Below, one piece after another: positions 26,361-53,619 of a stretch of 64,000 nucleotides of DNA. Position numbers and translations under genes: made by a program. This stretch comes from Microbacterium abyssi. GTDB taxonomy: Bacteria; Actinomycetota; Actinomycetes; Actinomycetales; Microbacteriaceae. Below the pieces are notes generated by a model. The model made no database searches. It saw nothing but the letters and a program-made list of their open reading frames with translations, and was not told where the DNA came from. The stretch is taken from the NCBI RefSeq assembly GCF_015277895.1, contig NZ_CP063815.1:558001-622000 (forward strand), given 5' to 3'. The stretch's first letter is position 1; every line of letters begins with the position of its first letter.

Positions 26361-26471
26361 GTTCCTTCGATAAGTCGTATGAGGGTTCGCAAATAACGGC
26401 GCCAGGCGGCGCCACGAGACCGACCGCTTGGGTCGGCGGCGACTACTCAGGTGCGACTTATCGAAAGGAAC
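26361..26471 (-). promoter_or_regulatory. Long-range stem hiding the DUF305 ribosome binding site
   Basis: Bases 26454-26471 and 26361-26377 are inverted repeats (17 pairs, one bulged base). In the mRNA the 5' arm is the codons for F-L-S-I-S-R at the end of the upstream ORF, and the 3' arm contains the AAGGA of the DUF305 gene. Two hairpins lie in the loop: CCGACC/GGTCGG (26420-26436) and GGCGCC/GGCGCC (26399-26414). A ribosome finishing the upstream ORF would cover the 5' arm and free the downstream start. Confidence 0.7.
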
Positions 26472-26896
26472 GTGAGCGAGGGAGCTCGCGGAAGGACACC
26501 TGTGGCATCCCACTTCACCAGGCTCATCGCTCGGTGAAGGGGCAGGCCGCGACCGTGGATCAGCGTCGGAGGAAGCAGTAGCAGGAGGCCGGCGAGTAGC
26601 GCGAGCACGCAGGCCGTCAGCATGTCGTTGTGGCCCTGGCCGGGCCCGGTGCTTACGTGACAGGGCCCATCGCAGGCGGTGCCCACGCTGTCGGGGCTGC
26701 CCATCAGGTCAGTGACGTGCTCATCGCCGGCTGCGGATGTTGAGTGGGTGAGCCCGGGTGATCCGTGCCCGGCTGGTTCGGCGGTGAAGGTGTGCATCGC
26801 CAGCAGCCCGACGATGACCATGAGCGTGGCCGCGCCGAGCATCAACACCGCGCGCAGCGACAGCTGCGGGCGTGTGGTGCGAAACGCGACTTGCAT
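26447..26896 (-). CDS. DUF6153-like membrane protein ending LSISRT (putative leader A)
   Basis: A 149-residue protein with a first helix at about residues 16-36, an outer loop with His and ACDGPCH (Cys75, Cys79, His80), and a second helix at about 93-110 with Cys96. A basic 39-residue tail ends SLTFLSISRT. Start ATG 26896 has GGAGG upstream. It resembles DUF6153, small proteins coded next to copper genes. The last codons pair with the ribosome binding site of the DUF305 gene 91 bases downstream. Two other ORFs in this window share the same ending. A Cu- or insertion-sensing leader polypeptide is my inference; a plain small copper-binding membrane protein is the alternative. Confidence 0.75.
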   Translation of the reverse strand: MQVAFRTTRPQLSLRAVLMLGAATLMVIVGLLAMHTFTAEPAGHGSPGLTHSTSAAGDEHVTDLMGSPDSVGTACDGPCHVSTGPGQGHNDMLTACVLALLAGLLLLLPPTLIHGRGLPLHRAMSLVKWDATGVLPRAPSLTFLSISRT

Positions 26897-27020
26897 GCGT
26901 TGATCCTCCGTCCTGCTCAGGATGCTAACACCGCGGACTATGCGCCTCTTCGGGTGACGAACTGACCTCGTTCGCGAATACGGGAAATGGCCGCAAGGCA
27001 TTTTACTCATCGTACCCGGA

Positions 27021-27037
27021 ATACCCCCTAGGGGTAT
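27021..27037. promoter_or_regulatory. CsoR operator
   Basis: ATACCCCCTAGGGGTAT has perfect 7-bp arms around CTA, the classic G-tract/C-tract CsoR box of actinobacteria. It lies 57 bases upstream of the YHS gene that heads the YHS-copB-csoR operon, so copper-responsive autoregulation by the CsoR coded at 29647 is expected. Confidence 0.85.
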
Positions 27038-27093
27038 ATGGTTTGGGTGTGAGACGCACCGTCCGTACCGATCGCGAGAAAGAGGAACGCCAC

Positions 27094-27354
27094 ATGTCCG
27101 ACTCCATCATGGGATCCTGCTGCGGCCACAAGCCTGGCACCGTCGCTGCCGACGGACGCAAGGATCTTCTCGCCCGATCGGCGGACGAGTACGCCGAATG
27201 CCCCGTCATGGTGGGCAGCGCCGTCGTAAAGGCGGACGCGGAAGCCGCCGGTTTGTTCCGCGATTACGACGGCAACCGGTACTACTTCTGCTGCGCCGGA
27301 TGCGGTCCCGCATTCGACGCTGACCCGGCCAGATACGCCACCGCCGCCGTCTGA
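27094..27354 (+). CDS. YHS-domain metal-binding protein
   Basis: An 86-residue protein with an N-terminal GSCCGH and a C-terminal YHS fold (CPVMVG, then YYFCCAGCGPAFDADP). YHS domains bind copper or related soft metals and often precede or are fused to Cu ATPases. Start ATG 27094 with AGAGGA upstream. It is first in the CsoR-controlled operon, 71 bases before the ATPase. It probably passes metal to the ATPase; this is inferred. Confidence 0.85.
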   Translation: MSDSIMGSCCGHKPGTVAADGRKDLLARSADEYAECPVMVGSAVVKADAEAAGLFRDYDGNRYYFCCAGCGPAFDADPARYATAAV

Positions 27355-51714: not shown

Positions 51715-52438
51715 AACCGCTGATCACCCCTCCCAGGCCTGACATCAGCGCTGTCCATAACCCGGAGACCATGACGATACCGACGAGGATCAGCAACACG
51801 CCACCAATGATGTTGATGATGCGAATGTGGCGTTTAAGCCAGCTCACTGACCCGGTCACCCAGTTCAGCCCCAGGGCGACCAGGAGGAACGGTATGCCGA
51901 GGCCGAGGCAGTAGACCGCGCCGAGCAGTGCGCCACGGGCGGGAGAGCCCCCGTTCAAGCTGAGCGCGAGAACAGCCGCCAGGGTCGGACCGATACATGG
52001 AGCCCAGCCCAGGCCGAAGACAATGCCCAAAAAGGGCGCACCTGCCAGGCCGGTCGCGACCTTCCAGCGGGGCTTGATCATGCGCTGCATCGACGTGAAC
52101 ATTCCGATGAAAACAAGGCCCATCAGGATGATGATCACGCCGGCAATGCGCGTGATCAGATCCATCCACGGCACCAACAACAGTCCCGCTGTCCCGAAGA
52201 GGAGTCCCAGCGTCACGAAGATCGCGCTGAAGCCGAGGATGAAAAGGAGCACGCCCAGCAGCATCCTCCGTCGGTCTGCGCGGCTGTCGTTGTCGCTGAG
52301 TCCGCCGACGTAGCCGAGATAGCCGGGGATCAGCGGTAATACGCACGGCGAGGCAAATGACACGAGCCCGGCGAGAAGTGCCAACGGGATGGCGATCAGT
52401 AGGCTCCCTGACACCACGATCTGATCGATCGTACCCAT
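51698..52438 (-). CDS. ccdA: Thiol-disulfide transporter CcdA
   Basis: A 246-residue six-helix protein with the redox cysteines in FASPCVLPLIPG (helix 1) and GWAPCIGPT (helix 4). It passes electrons from cytoplasmic thioredoxin to outside TlpA/ResA, which keeps apocytochrome cysteines reduced. ATG 52438 shares a base with the TlpA-like stop. Part of a complete System II operon. Confidence 0.93.
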   Translation of the reverse strand: MGTIDQIVVSGSLLIAIPLALLAGLVSFASPCVLPLIPGYLGYVGGLSDNDSRADRRRMLLGVLLFILGFSAIFVTLGLLFGTAGLLLVPWMDLITRIAGVIIILMGLVFIGMFTSMQRMIKPRWKVATGLAGAPFLGIVFGLGWAPCIGPTLAAVLALSLNGGSPARGALLGAVYCLGLGIPFLLVALGLNWVTGSVSWLKRHIRIINIIGGVLLILVGIVMVSGLWTALMSGLGGVISGFVPAI

Positions 52439-53031
52439 TACGGTTCCTCTGCAATGAGGTCGCTGATTATGGTGTCAAGTATCGAAGGTTCGTCGATAAG
52501 ACCGATGAATCGGGCGGCAACGCGGCCCTGCTTGTCGAGAACCAACGTCGTCGGCACCGCACTGGGTGGAGCGTGACCTGCAAACGCGAGCCGGACAGCC
52601 CCCGAGTTGGCATCGAGGATCGAGGGATACGTAATGTCGAAATTTCTCGCGAATGCGAGCGATGTCTCTGCTTGGTCGTAGACATTGACACCTAGGAAGC
52701 TGGCGCCAGCATCCTGATATTTGGCCGACAAAGCAGCAAGATCCGGAGCTTCAACTCGGCAGGGAGCGCACGCCGCGTACCAAAAGTTGACCACCAGCAC
52801 CTCGCCGGCATAATCACTGCTGGACACCAGGTTGCCCTCATCTGTGGTGCCATCGAACGCAACGGTCTCGCCGCGATCGCCCGGCGCGAATTCGGAGATG
52901 GTGCCATCCGCAGACGCGTAGCCTGTGTCGGCGATCTCCGCGTACTGTTCGGCCAGTGGGTCGGCGGCGCAGCCCGATAGCAACAACGTGGCCGCCACAA
53001 CCGTTGCGATAGAAACGGGAACGATTCTCAA
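52438..53031 (-). CDS. TlpA/ResA-like thioredoxin lipoprotein
   Basis: A 197-residue lipoprotein with lipobox LLSGC and a TlpA fold: NFWYAACAPCRVEAPDL has the CAPC centre, and PTTLVLDKQG the cis-Pro. I chose TTG 53031 because GGAGAG precedes it and it gives an ideal lipoprotein signal (MRIVPVSIATVV). Longer starts run into the structured leader. It reduces apocytochrome c thiols with CcdA. Its ribosome binding site can pair with the end of the upstream LSISRT ORF. Confidence 0.88.
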   Translation of the reverse strand: MRIVPVSIATVVAATLLLSGCAADPLAEQYAEIADTGYASADGTISEFAPGDRGETVAFDGTTDEGNLVSSSDYAGEVLVVNFWYAACAPCRVEAPDLAALSAKYQDAGASFLGVNVYDQAETSLAFARNFDITYPSILDANSGAVRLAFAGHAPPSAVPTTLVLDKQGRVAARFIGLIDEPSILDTIISDLIAEEP

Positions 53032-53033
53032 TG

Positions 53034-53206
53034 TCTCTCCAGCGTGAACGGTGATTCTTTGGTGCTCATGTTTGGTGCGCGGCATGACCGTCACCAAAGA
53101 GCTGCGCGACGCAGCCCAGTAAAGAACGCGCCAGATATTCACATCGCTCGATCGAGCAGACGTGAATGCGCGTCAGCGCAGGAATCAGGTTCGGCTGATG
53201 GAGAGA
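53034..53206 (-). promoter_or_regulatory. Leader structure over the TlpA-like start
   Basis: The mRNA segment from 53041-53034 (TGGAGAGA, containing the ribosome binding site) is the exact complement of TCTCTCCA at 53206-53199, inside the L-S-I codons of the upstream ORF. Three hairpins lie between: TTCAC/GTGAA with inner GCTCGA/TCGAGC (53138-53166), GCTGCG/CGCAGC (53101-53115) and TCTTTGGTG/CACCAAAGA (53056-53100). Confidence 0.55.
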
Positions 53207-53619
53207 AGAACCAATGACGGACGGATCAGCCGAGTCAGCGGCACCGCAGCAGAAACGACGGGTGACATACGGAGCTGCGTCGCGACCCAAGAATGCTTAC
53301 GACCGCTGCCGAGGTAGAGGCGGAGGAGAGCCAACACCAGAATGCAGCACCCGATCAGCGCTGCACACACGCCAGCCGTGATCAAAGCAGGTGATGCAAT
53401 GACGGACGCTTCAAGTACCTGGCCAAAAATCATCTTCGAGGAATCGGAGGTCGCAGCCGCGGAATCTGCGCTAGAGGACGATGCGGTTGTTGCCAGTGTG
53501 CTTGTGATGGCGCTCTCTGCGGCGGAGGCTGAAGCCGCATGCGGCAGAGCGGAGGCGCCTACCACTGAGACGAGCGCCAGCAACGCTGCTGCCGTGATCT
53601 TGAGCATCAACGTCCGCAT
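53185..53619 (-). CDS. Two-helix membrane protein ending LSISRT (putative leader C)
   Basis: A 144-residue protein: a signal or first helix (about residues 5-26), a Ser/Ala-rich outer loop, a second helix (about 78-101) with GVCAALIGCCILV (Cys85, Cys91, Cys92: the same C-x5-CC as the ORF at 34014), then a 43-residue basic tail ending PSLVLLSISRT. GGAAGGAG precedes ATG 53619. It lies directly upstream of the TlpA-CcdA-ResB-CcsB operon. The shared ending and the paired downstream ribosome binding site suggest a leader polypeptide; this is inference. Confidence 0.68.
   Translation of the reverse strand: MRTLMLKITAAALLALVSVVGASALPHAASASAAESAITSTLATTASSSSADSAAATSDSSKMIFGQVLEASVIASPALITAGVCAALIGCCILVLALLRLYLGSGRKHSWVATQLRMSPVVSAAVPLTRLIRPSLVLLSISRT

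Follow-up and report, generated by a model that had tools for sequence, protein, structure and literature searches.

The DNA stretch analyzed here (hereafter, the window) comprises 64,000 nucleotides (nt) of Microbacterium abyssi contig NZ_CP063815.1, positions 558,001 to 622,000. It contains three small open reading frames (ORFs), referred to as leaders 1 to 3, with the C-terminal tails SLTFLSISRT, SLTQLSLSRT, and SLVLLSISRT, and the codons of these tails are predicted to pair with the Shine-Dalgarno (SD) region of the next gene (Table 1). The first-pass annotation of this stretch had the positions and tails of the three ORFs right. It had also reported that their last codons differ at synonymous positions, which is indeed the case (CTTTCGATAAGTCGCACCTGA, CTCTCTCTGTCACGCACCTGA, and CTCTCCATCAGCCGAACCTGA), and that each ORF lies directly upstream, on the same strand, of a gene for an extracytoplasmic protein; by Pfam, the three products are DUF305, DsbA-like, and TlpA-like. 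A six-frame scan of the window with a relaxed motif (open frames of at least 70 codons) found none beyond leaders 1 to 3, and a loose DNA pattern of motif plus stop codon matched four places in the whole 3.27-Mb genome, three of which are leaders 1 to 3.

Leader 1 belongs to the Pfam family DUF6153 (PF19650; 31.4 bits against a curated cutoff of 27.7), and the match runs over profile positions 2 to 116 of 116, that is, to the last position. No Pfam family, DUF6153 included, matched leaders 2 and 3 over its cutoff. Counted from the C terminus, the Cys residues are at -58, -52, -51, and -30 in leader 2 and at -60, -54, and -53 in leader 3; the proposed spacing of 50 to 53 residues between the helix-2 Cys and the end is thus borne out, leader 2 having one further Cys at -30. 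Profile-profile comparison of leaders 2 and 3 without the tail gave 91% in hhalign, from low-diversity profiles, whereas either of them against DUF6153, after trimming of 14 residues, gave only about 4%, which is no match. Calling the three leaders unrelated was therefore too strong for leaders 2 and 3. These comparisons suggest that leaders 2 and 3 may be distant relatives of each other, not of DUF6153; a single family for all three is unsupported by them.

Table 1. Leaders, predicted stem arms, and downstream genes in the window (P, predicted pairing probability; z, relative to shuffled sequences)
Feature	Position	Strand	Details
Leader 1, Pfam DUF6153	26447..26896	minus	149 aa; C-terminus PRAPSLTFLSISRT; two hydrophobic segments; Cys at -75/-71/-54; 8 His
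5' arm, leader 1 motif codons and stop	26447..26471	minus	pairs 26471-26361 to 26447-26382, 20 pairs; P 1.0; z -7.1
3' arm, SD GAAGGA (~26363-26368) of DUF305 gene	26361..26382	minus	pairs with leader 1 tail
DUF305 lipoprotein gene	25748..26356	minus	presumed target; PF03713, E value 3.5e-48; 90-nt gap from leader 1
Leader 2	34014..34445	plus	143 aa; C-terminus TAPLSLTQLSLSRT; GCLLGIACC in second hydrophobic segment
5' arm, leader 2 motif codons and stop	34420..34445	plus	pairs 34420-34541 to 34445-34516, 19 pairs; P 0.79; z -3.8
3' arm, SD GGAG (34530-34533) and GTG start of dsbA-like gene	34516..34541	plus
DsbA-like thioredoxin gene	34539..35201	plus	presumed target; PF13462/PF01323; GTG start at 34539 chosen by hand
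Leader 3	53185..53619	minus	144 aa; C-terminus LIRPSLVLLSISRT; VCAALIGCC in second hydrophobic segment
5' arm, leader 3 motif codons and stop	53185..53206	minus	pairs 53206-53034 to 53185-53054, 17 pairs; P 1.0; z -3.2
3' arm, SD GGAGAG (53035-53040) of tlpA-like gene	53034..53054	minus
TlpA-like (Redoxin/AhpC-TSA) lipoprotein gene	52438..53031	minus	presumed target; assigned by Pfam; TTG start at 53031

Distribution of the terminal motif

The DNA pattern for the tail was found in 81 places in 120 genomes of the window's family, Microbacteriaceae; 49 of them, the window's three included, encode the exact peptide L[SC][IL]SRT-stop (set 1). Two controls were run: the reversed pattern gave about 63 matches in the same 120 genomes (a hand sum), and a permuted motif of the same composition gave 31, of which 3 carried the exact permuted peptide (a hand count). 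Given the number of reversed matches, the excess lies not in the match count but in the exact peptide (49/81 versus 3/31 for the permuted motif). Homologs of leaders 1 to 3 keep the tail while the remainder varies: 85 of the 89 listed proteins, again including the window's three, end in L[SC][IL]SRT, and the four exceptions end in FSISRT (P0022), LSISRI (P0026), LSIRRT (P0036), and LCIRRT (P0089).

A second genus, probably Streptomyces (61 genomes), has a variant of this tail. LQ[ILV]LR[TI]-stop is encoded at 40 of its 41 matched places and, in the listed DNA, LQMLRI-stop at the remaining one; loci were available for 20 places, and 19 were analyzed, L111 being omitted because it starts at a contig edge. 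Fourteen of the 19 group with DUF6153 and stand before DUF305 genes, four are of another type, and one has no plausible leader. Loci L104, L115, L117, and L122 carry a second leader type: all end in APDLHxLQVLRT, three of the four contain CPYDRG[DG]C, and they precede DUF3105-like genes (both of the two downstream genes compared with Pfam are DUF3105). The name Streptomyces for this genus, and mycobacteria for the genus with the LpqS proteins discussed below, were inferred from named Streptomyces records with relatives and from the name of the LpqS model, respectively.

Together with 46 leaders from Microbacteriaceae and the three of the window, the 19 make up the 68 leaders analyzed. After removal of the last 14 residues they fall into 18 groups (blastp, E value 1e-4), three of which are single short or cut ORFs, and such groups are not proof of separate origins. 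Up to five leaders occur in one genome, often adjoining different genes. A further set from the window's family was found by whole-protein homology: 96 matches were listed, of which 60 were fetched, 30 were already in set 1, and 6 were left out as partial, interrupted by an internal stop, or weak. DUF6153 as defined by Pfam is sparse over the phylum (6 of 296 genomes at an E value of 0.001, with 4 over the cutoff).

TGA, TAG, and TAA all follow the motif, and dependence on a particular stop codon was rejected as a rule. Leaders of the window's family mostly end in TGA (39/49 in set 1 and 49/60 in the homology-found set). TAG ends 32 of the 41 LQxLR[TI] places of the second genus by hand count; it is a minority stop in Streptomyces.

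Predicted pairing of the tail codons with the next Shine-Dalgarno region

Reading of the intergenic regions revealed that the motif codons are complementary to the downstream ribosome-binding site (RBS); in leader 1, for instance, TTCGATAAGTCG faces CGACTTATCGAA, which runs into the SD sequence GAAGGA. This was evaluated by a swap test, in which the duplex energy between the last 24 nt plus stop codon of a leader and the 30 nt before the downstream start was compared for true and swapped pairs. Cognate pairs were the more stable ones at 38 motif-found loci of set 1, the window included (-17.0 versus -13.1 kcal/mol), at 18 loci of the second genus (-19.1 versus -15.9 kcal/mol), and at 57 of the 60 homology-found loci (-15.3 versus -10.9 kcal/mol; 49/57 beat their own swap mean), with 0 of 20,000 permutations each time. 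With one locus per genus (30 genera), the mean difference was -4.4 and the mean z was -7.7 (worst z of 50 picks, -6.6), and none of the 50 picks was reached by any of 2,000 permutations. Shifting either segment by 18 to 30 nt brought the excess from -3.95 to between -0.8 and +0.1 at the 38 loci and from -3.16 to between -0.9 and +0.3 at the 18 loci of the second genus. It stayed within -1.0 to +1.1 at all other offsets tried, the value at offset 150 being an artifact of too-short sequence, so that the peak is at motif times SD; the offset test thus also serves as a control for the shared base composition of a genome.

Folding in full context agrees. The SD core is paired with the tail at a probability above 0.5 in 27/38 and 15/18 loci; the mean probability is 0.645 versus 0.357 with swapped tails in set 1 (better in 29/38) and 0.821 versus 0.474 in the second genus (better in 16/18). 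The three window loci fold better than all 200 shuffles. Compensating changes are seen at individual loci: Arg is encoded by AGG in place of CGN in L128, where the partner is CCTATTGACCGAAAG; Ser by TCG in place of AGY in L143, where it is GAAATGGATA; and Ile by ATA in leader 1 of the window (ATAAGT), where it is ACTTAT.

For set 1 and the second genus, 12 of the 68 loci were omitted: eight lacked a clear leader or downstream start (L045, L057, L050, L055, L069, L066, L078, and L105), L068, L071, and L083 were near-duplicates, and L048 has a short ORF. At seven loci the start used in the duplex test had been chosen by hand beforehand (L060, L083, L064, L065, L087, L077, and leader 2 of the window), L083 then being dropped. 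The homology-found set had no hand-set starts, and three of its 60 loci were without a start; de-duplication by identity removed none within the set, and removal of four loci similar to set 1 left 53 with the same result. On this comparative evidence it is nearly certain that the last six or so codons of the leader mRNA form a stem with the SD region of the next gene, with covariation between the two arms.

The tail is also conserved as a peptide

Arg at -2 is invariant in the 60 homology-found leaders and is encoded by all six Arg codons. Ile or Val at -4 is equally constant (60/60), followed by Leu at -6 and Pro at -11 (59/60 each), Leu at -9 (56/60), Ser at -3 (50/60), and Thr at -1 (43/60); positions -12 to -40 have entropies of 2.0 to 3.7 bits, mostly above 3. 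Pro occurs at -12 in 34 of the 60, and many DUF6153 relatives have a Pro pair at -12/-11. The same tail is found on leaders with one and with two predicted helices. Sequence statistics thus show conservation of the peptide P-x-L-x-x-L-[SC]-[IV]-S-R-[TI]-stop and of a Cys around -54, independently of the RNA pairing.

It is extremely improbable that only the RNA matters and that the peptide is conserved as a by-product of encoding an anti-SD sequence before the stop codon. The motif codons do contain such a sequence (CTNTCC; CTCCTG in the second genus), but the same peptide is written with AGY or TCN for Ser and with CGN or AGR for Arg while the partner arm changes to match, and LQLLRI and LQVLRT leaders differ in pairing register. 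Furthermore, the most-paired codons in the window's family are -7 to -2, so that the arm for the most part does not extend to P(-11) and L(-9). Selection on the RNA only and selection on the peptide only were each rejected as sufficient, given the swap tests and the residue conservation. Since the codons covary with the SD arm while the amino acids stay, selection acts on both levels; the first-pass view that it acts on the peptide was correct for the peptide but gave only half of the picture.

For the second Ser of the motif, 32 of 49 and 28 of 60 leaders use AGT, a rare codon in GC-rich genomes; it often faces ACT in the RBS arm.

A cysteine at a fixed distance from the stop codon

The region from -59 to -50 contains a Cys in 123 of 125 leaders (31/31, 14/14, 59/60, and 19/20 in four sets, with L048, L079, and L105 omitted), most commonly at -54; from -49 to -40, all four sets together have a Cys in one leader. 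The Cys is kept whether one helix or two are predicted. DUF6153 leaders carry further Cys residues at about -61 to -77, plus His, and leaders 2 and 3 and several similar ones have two Cys residues about six positions apart in helix 2. At least one hydrophobic segment is present in 61 of the 68 leaders; the other seven are short, cut, or start late through automatic choice. Two features of the CutF and CruR types of leaders, Cys/His at a fixed distance from the C-terminal motif and, judged from the hydrophobic segments, an N-terminal export signal or transmembrane segment, are thus found here.

According to the first-pass annotation, helix 2 would be just reaching the membrane when the ribosome is at the motif. 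This does not hold in general: leaders of the second genus and of L052, L072, L081, and L085 have at most one predicted helix and keep the tail (with a Cys at -50 to -59 in all but L052), and helix-2 timing was rejected as a general principle. The ribosome tunnel holds about 30 to 35 residues, and crossing of the translocon takes another 15 to 20. By these lengths, a ribosome arriving at the stop codon would have the residue at -54 just past the membrane.

The Cys/His content and the order of the genes would also suit a finished protein that acts as a membrane copper or thiol chaperone, or as a partner of the downstream product, with the hexapeptide as a docking site or degron. However, the inferred topology puts the tail outside the membrane when a leader has one helix and inside when it has two, so that it would have no single partner, and such a protein gives no reason for a covarying stem; we consider this very unlikely. 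Plain translational coupling, a described mechanism for neighboring genes (PMC12548453), is distinctly unlikely, even though the geometry of the stem alone would produce it. Any ribosome terminating at the leader stop would then open the stem, there would be no regulated arrest, and the peptide would have a function of its own or none, which leaves unexplained the invariant Arg(-2) with its six codons, P(-11), L(-9), and a Cys at a fixed distance across leader groups.

RAPP/RGPP motifs and LpqS

A stall at a Pro pair at about -12/-11, upstream of the tail, as in CruR and other RAPP-type leaders, with a Rho-dependent or other transcriptional output and a second role for the tail, is a rather unlikely alternative. 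RAPP is indeed present at -14 to -11 in 14 of the 19 second-genus leaders, the 14 being exactly those of the DUF6153 group, and the window's family conserves P(-11). Seven RAPP/RGPP proteins of Streptomyces lividans arrest translation in vitro, and one of them, SLIV_16130, has a signal sequence, Cys48 and Cys66, and a metal-related downstream gene (PMC12992588); SLIV_16130 may belong to DUF6153. On the other hand, the last 40 residues contain RAPP or RGPP in just 0/49 and 2/60 leaders of the window's family, the last 15 residues of the window leaders contain neither PP nor RAPP, and positions -9, -6, -4, and -2 are conserved even though they would be untranslated at such a stall. The leading edge of the ribosome is at about 16 nt. 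A ribosome stalled at the Pro pair would stop short of the 5' arm and leave it free; RAPP is therefore proposed as a hold site and the terminal motif as the opening site.

LpqS (NCBIfam NF052429) was examined at 32 loci of a longer list (L184, L185, and L188 to L217). All 32 have Arg(-2), [ILV](-4), and RAPP or RGPP (RGPP near -25), and the proteins often end in LCIARR. Tail and RBS can pair, for example TTTCTGTATC/GATACAGAAA in L185, with -29 kcal/mol in L189. Among the matches listed there are up to 11 per genome, and several loci have a CysK2-like gene (judged by eye) downstream. From these sequences, LpqS genes may be leaders of a related class, which is a lead and not a result.

Downstream genes and neighborhood

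DUF305 genes are downstream in 26/49 loci of set 1, 14/19 of the second genus, and 50/60 of the homology-found set (set 3), as detected with a local profile; copper-binding CopM is a DUF305 protein (PMC4335983). Pfam analysis of 27 non-DUF305 neighbors identified DsbA, TlpA-like thioredoxins, CueP, DUF3105, M23 and CHAP hydrolases, Lgt, an FAD oxidoreductase, an acyltransferase, and BNR lipoproteins, whereas the neighbor in L059 has no family. DUF305, CueP, and a multicopper oxidase-like ORF in second position (by eye) give a copper-linked context, and the downstream products, judged by eye, are mostly exported or membrane bound. Copper or thiol handling is thus the commonest theme and not the rule: the expectation of a copper or thiol gene behind each leader fails for M23, CHAP, Lgt, acyltransferase, DUF3105, and BNR targets. 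The same tails stand before M23 and CHAP-type cell-wall hydrolases in L043, L050, L055, L061, L066, L070, L072, and L074, the CHAP match in L072 being under the curated cutoff. At such loci, the input may be the state of the envelope rather than copper.

Within the window, CcdA-like and ResB-like ORFs (by eye) come after the tlpA-like gene. In the interval from leader 1 to leader 2, positions 27043-31841 contain, by eye, genes for a YHS-type Cys protein, a copper P-type ATPase, a CsoR-like repressor, and an ArsR-like regulator, which give this part the look of a metal-resistance region. Immediately upstream of leader 3, and on its strand, is a transposase-like ORF (by eye, 53682-54098), which suggests a mobile region.

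Comparison with known leader peptides

CutF of Rhodobacter capsulatus is a cis-acting, exported Cys leader with a C-terminal stall-like motif, an SD-hiding stem-loop, and a copper-related target (PMC9973294). Sequestration of the next SD by a stem is likewise indicated here by prediction and covariation. CutF differs in its proline-rich C terminus and in having its stem-loop between cutF and cutO, and proteins were listed as CutF-like only if PP occurred in their final 15 residues (PMC9973294). In the window leaders, by contrast, the motif codons make up the 5' arm, and LS[I/L]SRT-stop forms the tail. CruR (DUF2946) of Bordetella pertussis is an exported upstream-ORF product that heads copper operons and has a CXXC 45 residues before its C-terminal arrest motif (PMC9426467), a spacing with the same logic as the fixed-distance Cys of the leaders. 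It is unlike them in that RAPP lies three residues from the end, termination is Rho dependent, copper relieves the arrest, and its relatives are mostly in Proteobacteria (PMC9426467).

The S. lividans RAPP/RGPP peptides are also actinobacterial. Most of them are exported or membrane leaders, some have conserved Cys/His, the genes that they precede include metal and thioredoxin genes among others, and their arrest was shown in vitro and in B. subtilis; they are defined, however, by RAPP/RGPP, which the window's leaders lack (PMC12992588). The sections of that paper covered here describe neither pairing of tail codons with the next SD nor an LxIxR-stop element. LpqS, annotated as a protein in its own right (the mycobacterial "putative copper homeostasis (lipo)protein"), shares Arg(-2), [ILV](-4), and the tail-RBS pairing with the leaders but differs in its RGPP near -25, its lack of a Cys at -59 to -50, and its weaker swap test. 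MifM and VemP, exported arrest peptides upstream of sec/yidC genes, are monitoring substrates that report translocation and have other arrest motifs. SecM and ApcA/ApdA, of the same kind, likewise resemble the leaders as exported arrest peptides, and the secM-secA stem sequesters the secA SD; they differ in standing upstream of sec/yidC genes, in reporting translocation, and in having other arrest motifs (PMC7897499). The best reading by analogy is that the window leaders resemble CutF and CruR, mostly without RAPP, and would work by attenuation with an extracytoplasmic input as in CutF.

Searches of the open-access literature (with subscription papers, preprints, and supplementary lists of CutF-like or RAPP proteins, where DUF6153 members may occur, outside) returned nothing on LSISRT or DUF6153, and no paper was recognized from titles and abstract openings as describing the motif. 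In the open-access papers searched, we thus did not find the terminal LxIxR-stop motif, its apparent overlap with the anti-SD arm, or its spread in Actinobacteria.

Proposed mechanism

Each of the three ORFs is probably a cis-acting leader that governs translation of the next gene as a translational attenuator: a ribosome that pauses at the terminal motif would melt the SD stem. Each component has known counterparts, namely attenuation, exported arrest peptides, and copper-responsive upstream ORFs. The leader would be exported cotranslationally, and at the stop codon the conserved Cys, with Cys/His partners at -58 to -75, would be just out on the outer side of the membrane. The terminal motif would then make the ribosome dwell at the end of the leader, which, judging from the sequences, is likely. 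A dwelling ribosome would cover the 5' arm, block the stem, and free the downstream SD; after fast termination the stem would re-form and the next gene would stay silent. The dwell time would be set by the state of the Cys/His sensor, that is, by metal binding, a disulfide, or tension from insertion or export. The conserved terminal peptide is a natural candidate for causing the dwell, and the Cys/His domain for its timing. In the window's family, the terminal motif rather than RAPP would be the opening site; the extra upstream RAPP or RGPP of LpqS and of the second-genus DUF6153 leaders would possibly hold the ribosome, with the terminal motif again as the opening site. Of the nascent-chain sensor first proposed for these ORFs, the peptide-level C-terminal motif and the exported Cys leaders are retained and the stem is added as the regulatory link, whereas helix-2 timing and exclusivity for copper and thiols are not.

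Several observations weigh against this attenuator. The probability that the SD is paired with the tail is 0.5 or lower in 11/38 and 3/18 loci, several with long gaps and uncertain starts, and 8 of the 57 homology-found loci are no better than their own swap mean, with L173 and L183 nearly without pairing. A free search over 60 nt in the second genus gave a pairing frequency of 0.44 at codons -14/-13, much the same as at most motif codons (0.17 to 0.52). The profile used for the homology search (A3) included the tail columns, by which the tail frequencies of the 60 leaders may be slightly inflated. M23 hydrolase-type targets have no obvious fit to a copper or thiol sensor. Finally, in the LpqS loci examined, the swap test was modest (the cognate value was reached in 86 of 20,000 permutations), in part because relatives have both arms in common, and a Cys at -59 to -50 was found in 0 of 32.

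A wider class is a more tentative proposal, for which the odds are somewhat short of even, lowered as they are by LpqS lacking the conserved Cys. It would consist of actinobacteria-wide exported nascent-chain sensors with a stop-anchored, RAPP-independent arrest motif, L-x-[IL]-x-R-x-stop, whose own codons lock the next SD. LpqS would be included as a cis leader rather than a copper lipoprotein, and there would be two sites, one for holding and one for opening, where RAPP or RGPP is present.

Implications

If the proposed mechanism is correct, Actinobacteria would turn the extracytoplasmic state of copper, thiols, or the envelope into protein synthesis without a transcription factor, and DUF6153, an unexplained Pfam family, and possibly LpqS would become regulatory leaders. 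The tail would be a candidate arrest motif of a new kind, anchored at the stop codon. The sensor peptide and the RNA lock would share a stretch of some 18 nucleotides, which makes both of them accessible to tests by recoding. Control of the genes downstream of such leaders, which for RAPP leaders was left open in the covered sections of PMC12992588, thus becomes testable.

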